This document shows, one piece after another, positions 4,084-32,575 of a stretch of DNA of 36,542 nucleotides. The DNA is from a virus. The position numbers were made by a program, and so were the translations under genes. Where the stretch lies: the IMG/VR virus record IMGVR_UViG_3300047472_000088, positions 1 through 36,542 of that record, one strand, 5' to 3'. Each line of letters starts with the position of its first letter. Positions within the stretch are counted from its first letter, which is position 1. The notes beneath the pieces are model-generated. The model ran no database searches, was not told the DNA's origin, and worked only from the letters and a program-made list of their open reading frames with translations.

Positions 4084-4826
4084 GCGCTCTCCTCGATGTC
4101 AGTGGTGGTGATCCGTCCGGGCGGACTGGTCACCAACGCGCGCAGCGAAAGCTGGTCCAGTACCTGCTCTCCGAGGTACGCCGTGTAAGCCGGCGGGATC
4201 GCCTCACTGATCTCGTGCCGCGACGCGATCCAAGGCACGCCCATAAGTCGGCGGACCTCGCTGCTGCGGATGTGATGGCGGGTCTCGCCGATCGACTTCC
4301 TGCGGTCCTCGCCGGAGTGGCCGTAGACGCTGATGGTGTCCCCAACTGGGCAGAGACAGCCAGGCGACATCAGCGGCAGGTTGCTCTCGAATAGCCGGTG
4401 CCGCTTGATGTGGCGTAGGCCCATCGCCCACCCGCAGATCAACACTGGGTGGTCCATCGGAGCGCCGGGGACGTTCTCAATGAGGTAGGGGCCACCCCAC
4501 GCGCGCAGCAGCTCACGGACGGCCGGCACGAGGTCAGGGTGCTCGGCGCCGCGGCCCGTCGCGCTGGCGCTGGCGCTGTAGCGCTGGCACGGCGGCGAGG
4601 CATGGATCACGTCGAATTGGTCGAGGAAGTCGCGATCCCGCAGCACATCGATCGCATCCGCCTCGATGAACTCGAACGGGTACGAGAGACGCTGCTCGAT
4701 GTCCACGCCGACGACCTCGAAGCCTGCATCCCAGTAGCCGACAGAGCAGCCCCCCGAGCAGCAGAAAAGGTCAAGTAGCCGCGGTCGGCGCTGCGTAATC
4801 TCGGCCGTAGGTAGTGAGTCAGGCAT
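4080..4826 (-). CDS. DNA (cytosine-5) methyltransferase, orphan
   Basis: A compact 248-residue C5-methyltransferase. Motif I is LLDLFCCSGGCSVGY (18-31), motif II ends VVGVDIE (38-44), motif IV is ASPPCQ with catalytic C80, motif VI is IENVPGAP (117-123), motif VIII is KRHRLF (141-146), and motif X is EAIPPAYTAYLG (208-219). The target-recognition segment between VIII and X is short and contains CLC (157-159). No restriction enzyme lies nearby, so the likely role is protection of phage DNA from host restriction or epigenetic control. Its recognition site cannot be read here. It overlaps the loader gene upstream by 8 bp. Confidence 0.88.
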   Translation of the reverse strand: MPDSLPTAEITQRRPRLLDLFCCSGGCSVGYWDAGFEVVGVDIEQRLSYPFEFIEADAIDVLRDRDFLDQFDVIHASPPCQRYSASASATGRGAEHPDLVPAVRELLRAWGGPYLIENVPGAPMDHPVLICGWAMGLRHIKRHRLFESNLPLMSPGCLCPVGDTISVYGHSGEDRRKSIGETRHHIRSSEVRRLMGVPWIASRHEISEAIPPAYTAYLGEQVLDQLSLRALVTSPPGRITTTDIEESA

Positions 4827-5235
4827 GGTCGGTCTCCTCGCTAGGTGCGGGCATCAACGCCCGAAGTTCCGGTAGGCGGCGGGGCTTCAGGACGCCGTAG
4901 GCCGCGTCTGAGTCGATGAGTTCGCCGTCCCCGATGCGGCCGTGCATCTCCTTGATCCACGCGATCGTCTGGAGCGGCGTGAGGTCGGGCGGCGGGGTCA
5001 GTGGCGGGTGCTCGTCGCGGCGCTTGGCCCGGATGCGCTTCACTTCGGCGATGATCTCGGCCGGCGCGATGAACGGCTGCCGCATCAGTACCGACTTCAC
5101 AGCCAACTGCGCATCCTCGAACCGGACCGCACAGAGAAGGTCCGCCCACACGGTCGGCGTGAACTCGTCCATCTTCTGCTGCGGACAACACGCCGCCACG
5201 TAGCGGCACAGCTTCAGCGCTTCCTCGGCGTTCAC
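4819..5235 (-). CDS. Replicative helicase loader/inhibitor-like protein (G39P type)
   Basis: A 138-residue protein from GTG 5235 (GTGA overlap with the initiator gene). Its N-terminal 75 residues (EEALKLCRYVAACCPQQ, then VWADLLCAVRFEDAQLAV, then PFIAPAEIIAEVKRIR) follow the pattern of the SPP1 G39P N-terminal domain: helix, aromatic/proline break, and a final P-A-E-I helix. G39P-type proteins deliver the replicative helicase to the initiator at the origin. The C-terminal half is Pro-rich and then mixed. Position directly after the initiator fits the role; the family call is from pattern only. Confidence 0.65.
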   Translation of the reverse strand: MNAEEALKLCRYVAACCPQQKMDEFTPTVWADLLCAVRFEDAQLAVKSVLMRQPFIAPAEIIAEVKRIRAKRRDEHPPLTPPPDLTPLQTIAWIKEMHGRIGDGELIDSDAAYGVLKPRRLPELRALMPAPSEETDHA

Positions 5236-6086
5236 TGGTCCGCCCCCCGCAGTGCATCCAGAGCGCGGGCGCGGTCGGCGGCTGCGTCCCAGTCGATGCC
5301 ACCAGGACGCGGCACGCTCTTCTGTCGCTGCGCCTGAAGCCGCAGGGTGTCGAACTTCTCCCGGAGCTTCGGAAGCGACAAGATCACGCCACGCCAGAAG
5401 GGGTCGGCCTGGCACCAGTCGATCGCGCCGTGGATCTCCTGCTCGGTGCGCTTGTCCTTGTCGAGCATCAGCCGCGCTGAGGTGTGCCACGACTTCCCGA
5501 TGTTCGGCCGCTTGCTGCCATTGGTCTCGATGGCGTCTGCGAGGTGGTTGCAGATGCGCTCTACGTCGGGGGCGGTGGTGACGATGTCGAGAGATGCCCC
5601 GGTAGTCGGCGCTGCGGCGTCAGCCGCGTTGATCTTCTCTCTCTCTTCTCTCTCTCTCTTCTCTCTAGGCATCGCTGACTCGGATGCATCGGGCATTGCA
5701 TCGGGCATGCTCGATGCATTGCTAACCGCATTGCTAGATGCATCCCAGCGGCGGGATGCGGCCCGCTTCGCCTTCTCCGACGCGCCCTTGACCTCGGTGC
5801 TGCTGCGCTGGTGCTCGAGGTAGTCGTGGACCTCGGCCTTGCCTCCCGTTGGCCCGTCGACCCAGAGGCCGGCGGCGAGGAGCAGTTCGGCGTCGACCTC
5901 TGTTGCGCCGGTCGACCTGAGCAGCGCCTTGATGGGCACGATGCCGTCGGTGAGGTGCTGGGCGGCGTACCCGATGGAGCCGATGTGGAGCAGTACGGCG
6001 GTTGGGGACTCGTCGAGGATGGACAGCACCTTGGGGTTGGTGAGGTAGCCGACGTCGAGCTTGAAGTACGCGCGCTTGTCGGCCAT
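5232..6086 (-). CDS. Phage replication initiator protein (lambda O-like architecture)
   Basis: A 284-residue protein from ATG 6086. Residues 1-95 look like a winged-helix domain (YFKLDVGYLTNPKVLSIL, then LLLAAGLWV and VHDYLEHQ). A low-complexity linker follows (115-155) with the repeats PDAMPDASESAMP and a charged REKREREEREK run, then a helical C-terminal domain (180-284) with WHTSARLMLDKD and WCQADPFWRGVILSLPKLREKF. This two-domain form with an encoded linker is typical of phage origin-binding proteins. The linker DNA carries iteron-like repeats, as in the lambda O gene. Helicase-loader and HNH/resolvase neighbours support a replication role. Confidence 0.75.
   Translation of the reverse strand: MADKRAYFKLDVGYLTNPKVLSILDESPTAVLLHIGSIGYAAQHLTDGIVPIKALLRSTGATEVDAELLLAAGLWVDGPTGGKAEVHDYLEHQRSSTEVKGASEKAKRAASRRWDASSNAVSNASSMPDAMPDASESAMPREKREREEREKINAADAAAPTTGASLDIVTTAPDVERICNHLADAIETNGSKRPNIGKSWHTSARLMLDKDKRTEQEIHGAIDWCQADPFWRGVILSLPKLREKFDTLRLQAQRQKSVPRPGGIDWDAAADRARALDALRGADQ
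5633..5745. other. Putative replication origin inside the initiator gene
   Basis: Within the initiator linker lie three GATGCAT copies (5683, 5713, 5737), each centred on the palindrome ATGCAT, and three GCATTGC copies (5693, 5716, 5728), two of them inside GCATTGCTA. Directly beside them is an uninterrupted 34-base pyrimidine run (5633-5666). Iterons next to a strand-asymmetric tract inside the initiator gene are the hallmark of lambda-type origins. Function is inferred from layout. Confidence 0.6.
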
Positions 6087-7601: not shown

Positions 7602-7753
7602 GTCGCACCGCCGTCCCGACCAACGGGCGAAGTGATCGGCTTTTCGTCGCCTCGGATAACTGCCTTGGCGGCAGGGCTGAGGTCCTGGTCTGCGAGCAGT
7701 CGGGCGTAGACGGCGCGGACGTACTGGGTGGCCTCTTCGGCGTTCAGACTCAC
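7598..7753 (-). CDS. Small helical protein
   Basis: A 51-residue protein from GTG 7753, linked by GTGA to the PAPS-reductase-like gene upstream and by ATGA to rusA downstream. It has one amphipathic region (NAEEATQYVRAVYARLLADQDLSP) and a Gly/Pro-rich tail. No family is recognised. The double coupling suggests it is translated with its neighbours. Confidence 0.55.
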   Translation of the reverse strand: MSLNAEEATQYVRAVYARLLADQDLSPAAKAVIRGDEKPITSPVGRDGGAT

Positions 7754-8688
7754 GAGACCGCCTCCAATCCAGGGATGAACCGGTCGTCGCACGACGAGCA
7801 GAGCGCGCCGACCTTCGACTTCTTGGTCCGGGTGGCGGCGAGCACGGCAGGGTCAGCGCCCCAGCCCCACGTCCTGCGGTGCAGCGGGATGTCCTCGCGG
7901 TCGGCGATCTCGGCCTCCAGGGCGGCGATCTCCTCGAAGACCTCCGGGAACCACGACGACACCTCGGCGCGCTCGCCGGCCGACGCGAACGAGCCGCACA
8001 GGCACTCGCCGGACATGTGGATCAGGTCGGACACCTGGTTGACCGGGACGTCGCCCCGCATGAGGCGGTAGGTGTTCAGGTCGAGCTTGGTCCAGTTGAC
8101 CAGCGGCGACACCCACACGGTGGACCGGTTGCGCTCAGACTCGGGGATCTGCGCTCGACGCTGCGACTCGGAGCGCCTGCGCCCCGCGAGGAACACGACG
8201 CGCTGCTTGTAGGGATGGGTCACCAGCTCGCGGCGCACCTGTTGCAGGGCGCGCTCCTTGAGGCGCTGGAACATCTTGAAGTGGTGGCCGGGGCCGGGGA
8301 ACCCCTGGTCGAGCACAAGAGCCCGGTAGTGGTCGGACTCGCGCGGCGGGGTCCGCTCTAGCAGGGGCAGCCCCCACTCCTCGCAGGTGTTGCGCACGAA
8401 GTCGCGGGTCTGCTCGATCCCGATGGTGGTGTTGGCGTGGGCGGCGTGGGTTGCGACGTCCTTGAAGAGGTGCGCGAGGACGGTGGAGTCGTTGCCCCCG
8501 GAGAACAGGATCACGATGCCCGCGGTGGTGCGCTTCCCCATCGGGATGTGCTCCTCGATTGCGCGGTCGAGGATGCCGTAGGACTCGGCGATCAGGTGGG
8601 TCACGCGGGCCTCGCGCTGGGGTCGCGTCAGGCGTGCGACGTCCTCCGCGGAAAGCCGATCACTTTCGGCCTTGCTCTCGGCGTTCAT
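7750..8688 (-). CDS. PAPS reductase-family PP-loop protein
   Basis: A 312-residue adenine-nucleotide α-hydrolase. The PP-loop FSGGNDSTV lies at 62-70, where ATP or adenylyl-sulfate binds. Downstream are an Arg-rich segment (AGRRRSESQRRAQIPES, 168-184) and four cysteines: ECLCG (229, 231) and CSSC (297, 300), able to hold a metal or Fe-S cluster. CysH, DndC and related phage proteins share this arrangement. It has no CysH-type ECGLH tail, so sulfate assimilation is unlikely; sulfur transfer to DNA or RNA, or a role against host defence, is possible. It overlaps the upstream ORF by 4 bp (ATGA). Confidence 0.75.
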   Translation of the reverse strand: MNAESKAESDRLSAEDVARLTRPQREARVTHLIAESYGILDRAIEEHIPMGKRTTAGIVILFSGGNDSTVLAHLFKDVATHAAHANTTIGIEQTRDFVRNTCEEWGLPLLERTPPRESDHYRALVLDQGFPGPGHHFKMFQRLKERALQQVRRELVTHPYKQRVVFLAGRRRSESQRRAQIPESERNRSTVWVSPLVNWTKLDLNTYRLMRGDVPVNQVSDLIHMSGECLCGSFASAGERAEVSSWFPEVFEEIAALEAEIADREDIPLHRRTWGWGADPAVLAATRTKKSKVGALCSSCDDRFIPGLEAVS

Positions 8689-9188
8689 GCGCCGGCCCCG
8701 GTCTCGAGCGCGGCGACCTCGGCGCGGATTTGTGTCTGGCGTTCGGGGGTTGCGGTGTGCCATTCGACGGCGAGTTGCTCCTTGCGCGTCAGCTCGGGCA
8801 GCGGGTCGACGGTGTGCTTCTTCCGCTTGCCGCGGGTCTCGGTGAGCATCACGGACAGCGGCTTGCCGTCGGGGAGGTCGCTCAGGTGGGACACTCTGAT
8901 TCCGCCGACCTTGTCGCGGCCGAAGGTGACGTCGGGGTCGCCGTAGAGGGTTGCCCGTCGGCCGACCCATTCCTTGGCGTTGTCGCCCCACGCCTCGACC
9001 ATCAGCTTGAGGACGGTGACGGCCGGACGCCAGACCCGCGAGTCACCTTCGATGGCGATGTCGTACTGCTGCTCGCGGGTGCCCTTGGTGACGCCTGCGA
9101 TGGTGATGGTGCGGGTGACGCCGCCGAGGAAGTCCTCGAAGTTGAGTTGGTCGGTCTTCTTTTCGATGGTGACCTTCAGGTCGCTCAC
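8685..9188 (-). CDS. Conserved phage protein, partner of the PD-(D/E)XK nuclease
   Basis: A 167-residue protein from GTG 9188. It is β-rich over residues 1-115 (VTIEKKTDQLNFEDF, RTITIAGVTKG, RRATLYGDPDVTFGRDKVGGIRVSHLSDLP), which would fit an OB-like or other DNA-binding sandwich, followed by a helical tail. Similar proteins often sit beside RecE/Cas4-like nucleases in actinophages, and a single-strand binding or recombination role is possible. I do not recognise a catalytic site. It overlaps the nuclease gene by 4 bp (GTGA). Confidence 0.6.
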   Translation of the reverse strand: MSDLKVTIEKKTDQLNFEDFLGGVTRTITIAGVTKGTREQQYDIAIEGDSRVWRPAVTVLKLMVEAWGDNAKEWVGRRATLYGDPDVTFGRDKVGGIRVSHLSDLPDGKPLSVMLTETRGKRKKHTVDPLPELTRKEQLAVEWHTATPERQTQIRAEVAALETGAGA

Positions 9189-13016: not shown

Positions 13017-13054
13017 GGCGCAACTCAAACACAGGAGGCACGGAACCCGCAACC

Positions 13055-13095
13055 AGATACGTGGAATCCGAAGAGATACTTAATTTTGCGTATCT
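13055..13095. promoter_or_regulatory. Operator-like AGATAC repeats between Cro and CI genes
   Basis: The hexamer AGATAC occurs at 13055-13060 and 13074-13079, and its complement GTATCT at 13090-13095. The latter two form an inverted repeat around a 10-bp A/T-rich centre. They lie upstream of the Cro start and within the divergent regulatory gap, where operators for both repressors are expected. The adjacent A/T-rich segment (TTAATTTTG) stands out from the GC-rich surroundings and may be part of the leftward promoter. Confidence 0.55.
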
Positions 13096-13109
13096 TGCGG
13101 GTGCCGGTC

Positions 13110-20503: not shown

Positions 20504-20526
20504 CGCGGCTCCTCATGTTTAGTGCC

Positions 20527-20563
20527 GCTTGACATGAAGTGTCTAGCGATGCTTTAATTGGGC
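20527..20563 (+). promoter_or_regulatory. Near-consensus promoter and operator of the inserted plus-strand unit
   Basis: A perfect -35 box TTGACA (20529-20534), an 18-bp spacer and TTTAAT (20553-20558). The -10 box ends five bases before ATG 20564 and no ribosome-binding site is present, so the transcript should be leaderless. A 21-bp imperfect palindrome GCTtGACA-tgaag-TGTCtAGC (20527-20547) covers the -35 box and could be the operator for the HTH protein that follows. Confidence 0.7.
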
Positions 20564-31999: not shown

Positions 32000-32575
32000 T
32001 TAGGAGCCCGAGACCAGATCGTTGAACTGCCCACGGTCGTGGGCGGCGACGATCTCCTCGGGGGTCATTCGCTTCATGTCCGCTTCGGTGAGCTGGCCGG
32101 CCTTCGCGCCGACGTCCTCACCTCTGTCGCCACCGCCGAAGTCGGGCTTTGGCTTGTTCGCCGCGGCCGTCTTGATGCGCGCGGACAGCCTCTCGGCGCG
32201 TGCATCAATCTCCTCGGGGGTGCCGTGCGTGCCGAGCAGCTCGAGGTCTTCCTCGGTCAGCCCGTGCTTGACGGCGGCCTTGACGCGGGCGAGTTCGGCG
32301 GCCGTCTCGGCGGCCTCCCGCTTCGCCTTGACCGCGTCATCCACGGCCTTCTGCGTCTCGGTCTTCTGAGACTCCTCGAACTCATCGAAGCGCTTCGCCT
32401 TGTCGGCGTTCGCCTTCGCTGCGTCCTCGTGCTTCCGCGCGAACGCCTTCCACTTCTCGGCCTCGCTCTGCCAGTTCTTCTCGCCACCCGTGTCGGGGGC
32501 GGGAGTCTCGGCGGGCGGGGTGTCAGCGGCGGGCGCCTCGGTTGCCGGCGTCTCGGGGGTGGTGGTGTCGGACAT
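32000..32575 (-). CDS. Scaffolding protein
   Basis: A 191-residue protein from ATG 32575, preceded by AGGGAG. It is highly charged and helical: a Pro/Thr-rich start (TPETPATEAPAADTPPAET), a long coiled coil (WQSEAEKWKAFARKHEDAAKANADKAKRFDEFEES, then VKAKREAAETAAELARVKAAV) and a C-terminal motif (TEADMKRMTPEEIVAAHDRGQFNDLV). It guides capsid assembly and then leaves. It lies directly before the capsid gene. Confidence 0.85.
   Translation of the reverse strand: MSDTTTPETPATEAPAADTPPAETPAPDTGGEKNWQSEAEKWKAFARKHEDAAKANADKAKRFDEFEESQKTETQKAVDDAVKAKREAAETAAELARVKAAVKHGLTEEDLELLGTHGTPEEIDARAERLSARIKTAAANKPKPDFGGGDRGEDVGAKAGQLTEADMKRMTPEEIVAAHDRGQFNDLVSGS

Follow-up and report, generated by a model that had tools for sequence, protein, structure and literature searches.

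The DNA analysed here (the window) is a 36,542-base IMG/VR virus record of 67.5% GC, in which Pfam and PHROG searches identified integrase, exonuclease VIII-like, portal, tape-measure and terminase genes. Its minus strand carries a replication initiator gene, P0001, and the overlapping gene of a predicted helicase loader, P0002. An iteron array and a purine tract make up linker-coding DNA of the initiator gene; a predicted winged-helix N-domain is encoded on one side of it and a lambda-O-type C-domain on the other. The features of the locus are the following.

4819–5235, minus strand: P0002, 138 aa, predicted G39P-type helicase loader, with a GTG start overlapping the initiator stop (model match to 1NO1)
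5232–6086, minus strand: replication initiator gene P0001, 284 aa plus stop (open frame and PHROG matches)
5316–5573, minus strand: lambda-O-type C-terminal domain of P0001, residues ~172–257 (BLASTP to lambda O and phrog_277)
5633–5666, minus strand: unbroken 34-nt run of coding-strand purines (plus-strand pyrimidines), proposed unwinding element (run search, stability, synonymous null)
5667–5745, minus strand: iteron array of ~12-nt units, core GCAATGC / GATGCATC on the coding strand (word positions and synonymous nulls)
5683–5690, no strand assigned: GATGCATC palindrome (word search)
5693–5699, no strand assigned: GCATTGC (word search)
5713–5719, no strand assigned: GATGCAT (word search)
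5716–5722, no strand assigned: GCATTGC (word search)
5728–5734, no strand assigned: GCATTGC (word search)
5737–5744, no strand assigned: GATGCATC palindrome (word search)
5745–6086, minus strand: N-terminal domain of P0001, residues 1–114, predicted winged helix and presumed iteron binder (AlphaFold model, conserved in relatives)

Domains of the initiator and the downstream gene

P0001 matches phrog_22834 (1.9e-36), the DnaD-like helicase loader phrog_2514 (3.6e-22), the replication initiation protein phrog_3926 (2.4e-21) and the O-like phrog_391 (7.4e-19). By BLASTP, its C-domain aligns with residues 212–277 of lambda O (31% over 67, E 6e-10), and the O-like phrog_277 matches P0001 residues 140–257; on sequence similarity we regard the C-domain as a true homologue of O. 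BLASTP detected the C-domain only and no homology between the N-domains of O and P0001. The AlphaFold model of the P0001 N-domain has a pLDDT of ~87–96 over residues 11–80. Structure comparison of the model gave VIA rows that are mostly winged-helix proteins, covering residues 10–93 with middling scores (Z ≤7.5), and the matches are generic winged-helix proteins only. PDB sequence searches returned no useful match.

The next gene had been proposed from its sequence to encode a G39P helicase loader, and the predicted structure agrees with this assignment. The AlphaFold model of P0002, built from a five-row alignment, has a pLDDT of 85–92 over residues 1–70, and its residues 1–63 superimpose on SPP1 G39P (1NO1) with Z 9.2 and an rmsd of 1.3 (63 of 67 residues aligned); the next unrelated structure scores Z 5.6. 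Foldseek also paired P0002 with 1NO1 (prob 0.89, TMt 0.80), but with a poor E of 1.9. P0002 matches no Pfam family. Its kin L176 matches the helicase loader phrog_2289 (2.8e-4), and both proteins share phrog_22143. Further kin of P0002 occur in Propionibacterium PFR1, the initiator of which has another N-terminal region, and in Arthrobacter Coral; scanning viral contigs for the loader turned up no relative. Among relatives of the initiator, the downstream gene encodes either a small G39P-like protein (this phage, L176–L179) or a DnaB-type helicase, sometimes after an intervening gene. The helicase calls were tested with Pfam in L171, L173, L175, L180 and L185 and made by eye in L046, L172, L174, L182, L184 and L186.

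The early region also holds a PAPS-reductase-like gene on the minus strand at 7750–8991 (PF01507, 1.7e-13), and a gene that resembles it by eye adjoins the initiator in L172.

Repeats and purine tract in the linker-coding DNA

The first-pass annotation had described three GATGCAT and three GCATTGC repeats (5683–5743) next to an unbroken 34-nt pyrimidine tract, and these positions are exact, with GATGCAT starting at 5683, 5713 and 5737 and GCATTGC at 5693, 5716 and 5728. In coding-strand orientation, the array forms a ~12-nt periodic series, AGCAATGC.... / GATGCATC, which abuts AGAGAGAAGAGAG and continues gap-free into AGAGAGAAGAGAGAGAGAGAAGAGAGAGAGAAGA, and it holds few exact copies. In the whole record, 5633–5666 is the sole pyrimidine run of at least 14 nt on the plus strand, and a run of 34 was seen in 0/100 dinucleotide shuffles. 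The genome-wide excess of the two words is not significant (GATGCAT, 5 versus 2.65 expected; GCATTGC, 6 versus 3.41). Their clustering is unusual, as 5/5 GATGCAT and 3/6 GCATTGC matches fall inside 62 bp. When 84-nt windows were ranked by repeated 7-mers, the best 15 listed all overlapped the array site at 5633–5745, and no second array of GATGCAT/GCATTGC was seen in the 36,542-nt record. A GC-rich imperfect tandem repeat of another kind, with a 30-nt unit in 2.4 copies, lies at 32489–32559.

The MPDA-type peptide repeats of the linker had been taken for a by-product of the DNA repeats, a view that synonymous nulls, codon conservation and the occurrence of the words in other frames in relatives all bear out. 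In synonymous shuffles within the gene that kept the protein fixed, the 34-nt purine run, the combined word count of 8 and the 65 repeated-7-mer pairs were each reached in 0/2000, and with codons drawn from the usage of the phage each was reached in 0/20,000. The GCAATGC count alone was weaker (41/2000 within-gene shuffles; 3/20,000 phage-usage draws). For the 28 codons ahead of the tract, the observed 22 7-mer pairs were found in 0/2000 shuffles and in 5/5000 when codons were drawn from the remainder of the gene. Lambda O was used as a yardstick: its annotated iterons at codons 116–144 precede a pure purine run of 18 nt, and under the same null its 24 pairs (mean 0.67) were reached in 0/2000.

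The nearest relative, L046, on a contig of an Actinomycetes MAG, is 61% identical to P0001. At conserved residues, the two genes retain the same codon in 18/19 cases in the linker versus 79/139 elsewhere (Fisher p 0.0009), and their longest exact DNA match, 28 nt, lies at the junction of array and tract. The Arg codon of the tract, AGA, accounts for 0.8% of Arg codons in sampled ORFs of the record. Since any Arg codon within a purine tract must be AGR, simple AGA counts in the tract are partly circular; a fair test is provided by the synonymous nulls and by the comparisons of Glu and Lys codons and of AGA with AGG. The repeats and the tract exceed what the protein requires.

Searches with the N-domain gave 31 viral loci and later 16, two of them new. 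The close set comprises 17 rows: this phage, L046, Arthrobacter phage vB_ArS-ArV2 (L054), L172, L077, L079, L086 (truncated by a contig end), L080, L081–L085, L087, L090, L186 and L088; L078 and L089 were left out as duplicates of ArV2 and L088, respectively. An unbroken coding-strand purine run of 20–35 nt directly follows the array in 17/17 of these rows. GCAATGC/GCATTGC is present in 11/15 non-redundant arrays (the near-copies L083 and L084 left out), and across the relatives the array words occur in all three reading frames. In L081–L084, the words are spaced ~11 nt apart (10–12), and therefore the peptide repeat is lost while the DNA repeat is kept. The 7-mer repeat test was not significant in L080, L085, L186 and L088 and was borderline or mixed in several others, and the tract alone was weak against the synonymous null in L082–L084 (232–408/5000). 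A tract of at least 20 nt occurs in 0/17 more distant N-domain loci (L091–L107), 5/17 of which have 14–16 nt, and the longest purine runs are 8–17 in weaker N-domain matches (12 phage or plasmid loci, L055–L065 and L067, and L066). Searches of ~400 genomes each in the class and the phylum found no close N-domain relative besides L046, and a pattern scan returned 54 viral stretches with the three words in order. At least two of the distant relatives, L095 and L097, keep GATGCAT/GCAATGC-type words in the linker (codons ~131–184) and lack any purine run that reaches 14 nt.

These data bear on the alternative that the DNA pattern is itself a by-product of a low-complexity, charged and flexible linker (SNAS/MPDA repeats, then an RE/KE-rich part), arising by slippage or peptide selection. 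Charged linkers are common in phage initiators, K, R, E and G are spelled by purine-only codons, and similar peptide repeats occur in several relatives. We nevertheless consider this alternative very unlikely in view of the synonymous nulls, the linker codons conserved in L046, the words in differing frames, the 11-nt spacing that breaks the peptide periodicity, the choice of the rare AGA, and the lack of a tract in GC-rich initiators that share the C-domain, mostly without a P0001-type N-domain. A protein-only explanation was rejected, mainly on the synonymous nulls, the codon conservation and the reading frames.

Duplex stability and a candidate replication origin

According to nearest-neighbour energies, the least stable of the 36,492 50-bp windows in the record starts at 5628, at the tract. 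When separate stability minima were ranked in 16 relative loci, truncated ones among them, the tract came out weakest in 10 loci and second or third in 6; the corresponding tract is also the weakest in a 1.9-kb piece of lambda. After the tract, the next least stable 50-bp stretches of the record are 13047–13097 and 20509–20559. GC skew was uninformative. The purine tract has 44% GC, which is low for this record, and those of the relatives have 34–56%; the tracts are thus not A+T-rich as in lambda (22%). In 15 non-redundant genes, the codons in the tract show no shift to A for Glu (GAA 20/59 inside versus 64/175 outside, p 0.76) or for Lys (AAA 7/22 versus 55/235, p 0.43), and AGA is strongly favoured over AGG (43/46 versus 13/38, p 6e-9). 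Codon choice suggests that what is kept is a run of purines in one strand with a GA beat, the AGR codons of a purine tract being definitional.

We interpret 5633–5745 as very probably a replication origin in the linker of the initiator gene, at which the initiator would open the tract and the G39P-type loader would place the helicase. The best reading of this candidate is an intragenic origin of the oriLambda/SPP1-oriL type, and iteron binding, tract opening, helicase loading and the start of replication are assigned to 5633–5745 by analogy with lambda and SPP1. Several initiator molecules would bind the 11–12 bp iterons (5667–5745) through their N-terminal winged helices, and the nucleoprotein complex so formed would strain the adjoining 34-bp purine/pyrimidine tract (5633–5666) until it opens. 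The O-type C-domain may then hand over to the product of the next gene, the G39P-type loader, which would place a DnaB-type helicase, presumably that of the host, on the opened strand.

Iteron arrays are often also autoregulatory, and the repeats could serve as an operator bound by the initiator, or as a partition or centromere-like site, rather than as a start of replication. This possibility appears highly improbable, because the array lies ~340 nt into the gene, away from the promoter, and the adjacent strand-asymmetric weakest duplex and the neighbouring loader or helicase gene are features of an origin and not of an operator. That the purine tract acts at the RNA level, as an internal ribosome-binding site or an element of mRNA stability for example, is hardly credible even though ribosomes can be attracted by purine-rich coding-strand RNA, since the tract by eye contains no AGGAGG and is followed by no close start codon, and the flanking iterons would be left unexplained.

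The parallel with lambda O drawn in the first-pass annotation holds for the iterons beside a strand-biased tract within O and extends to the homologous C-domain, whereas the iteron type and the A+T-richness differ. The lambda origin and the candidate sit in the initiator gene at nearly the same place (lambda iterons at codons 116–144, P0001 array at ~114–140), weakly paired strand-biased DNA, the weakest of the locus, directly follows the iterons, and the loader gene comes next with an overlapping start. In contrast, lambda has four 18–19 bp dyads instead of 11–12 bp mostly direct units, a 41-bp region of 22% GC and 73% purine instead of 34 nt of pure purine with 44% GC, and the loader P instead of a predicted G39P-type protein. 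An excerpt of one paper locates the lambdoid origin, which comprises iterons and an AT-rich region, in mid O and notes that additional iterons lengthen the O protein by further residues (PMC7466680).

In SPP1, as outlined in part of a published account, gp38 binds the oriL repeats inside gene 38 next to a DUE, and the loader gp39 is the protein of structure 1NO1 (PMC6316719). The direct repeats and the proposed unwinding element inside the initiator gene have a counterpart there (PMC6316719), as does the P0002 model, which matches the G39P structure. SPP1 differs in that it encodes a DnaB-type helicase (gp40) of its own and has oriR as a second origin, according to the same part of that account (PMC6316719), whereas no second word array was seen in this record, the initiator C-domain of which is O-type.

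The closest described relative is ORF59 of ArV2, which has an N-domain 51% identical to that of P0001 and, at the same place, GATGCAT, GCATTGC and GCAATGC words with a 23-nt purine tract. Its C-domain, in contrast, is a different one, and the gene of a DnaB-type helicase lies two genes further on. The replication-related text of the ArV2 paper calls ORF59 weakly O-like and contains no origin proposal that we found (PMC4205034). For some mycobacterial prophages, a passage of another paper holds that a RepA-dependent origin may sit within repA, as in lambda (PMC7157519). That RepA differs in being a plasmid-type protein for prophage maintenance, and its authors detected no repeats in the regions named in that passage (PMC7157519).

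C-domain types and strand asymmetry

Directly after the tract, the C-domains of the close relatives diverge into at least three types, labelled by eye as follows.

O-type: this phage, L046, L077, L081–L084
YPRK...WLN-type: ArV2, L172, L079, L085, L090, L186, L088
PDDW-type: L080, L087

On the N-domain tree, where only few branches are well supported and the ends are long, 4 changes of the O-type label are required, and supported branches make at least 3 of them unavoidable; L081–L085, a supported group, contains two C-domain types. The O-type label is not significantly clustered on this tree (80/500 shuffles as low). Conversely, the longest purine run is only 7–15 nt in 12 GC-rich initiators found through a related C-domain (L002–L008, L043 and L047–L050), most of which have other N-terminal regions and two of which, L005 and L048, are alike; this indicates that the tract tracks the N-domain and the array and not the C-domain.

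An intragenic origin of the lambda type is a kind already known. As far as the literature searched shows, what is apparently new is a GC-rich variant with 11–12 bp iterons and a pure-purine rather than A+T-rich unwinding tract, the pairing of an O-type C-domain with a G39P-type loader, and the exchange of C-domains at the tract; we do not assert priority, because that literature includes little from subscription journals. The candidate gives a concrete origin prediction for a phage group that includes ArV2, for which no proposed lytic origin surfaced in the same literature.

In lambda, the A+T-rich region has almost all its purines in one strand, and part of a 2016 review calls the resulting stiffening paradoxical (PMC5043065). 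A+T content and purine asymmetry are confounded in lambda and separated in these GC-rich phages, in which synonymous variants of the tracts could directly test strand bias against ease of melting in origin opening. We put forward, as a tentative proposal that may well prove wrong, that the signal conserved in lambda-type unwinding elements is not A+T content but strand asymmetry, in the form of pure purine with a GA beat, which these GC-rich phages kept while they abandoned A+T-richness, and that the N-domain, together with the iterons and the purine tract, makes up a portable origin cassette among exchanged C-domains and helicase-recruitment genes. If this proposal were true, the initiator would capture the purine or the pyrimidine strand, or the tract would adopt a non-B form, e.g. 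a triplex.

Two further observations concern low-GC initiators. In L012, L013, L015, L018, L023, L026, L029–L031, L033 and L040, the tract consists of AAAAAG-type hexamers, and its unbroken length is highly variable (33 to 96 nt), resembling a microsatellite at the presumed unwinding site. In L025, L020, L027, L028 and L037, low-GC viral initiators with the same C-domain type, an in-frame insert of ~85–90 residues that by eye resembles an HNH endonuclease domain (CxxC...LDHLIP...N) separates the N-domain from the linker next to the presumed origin.
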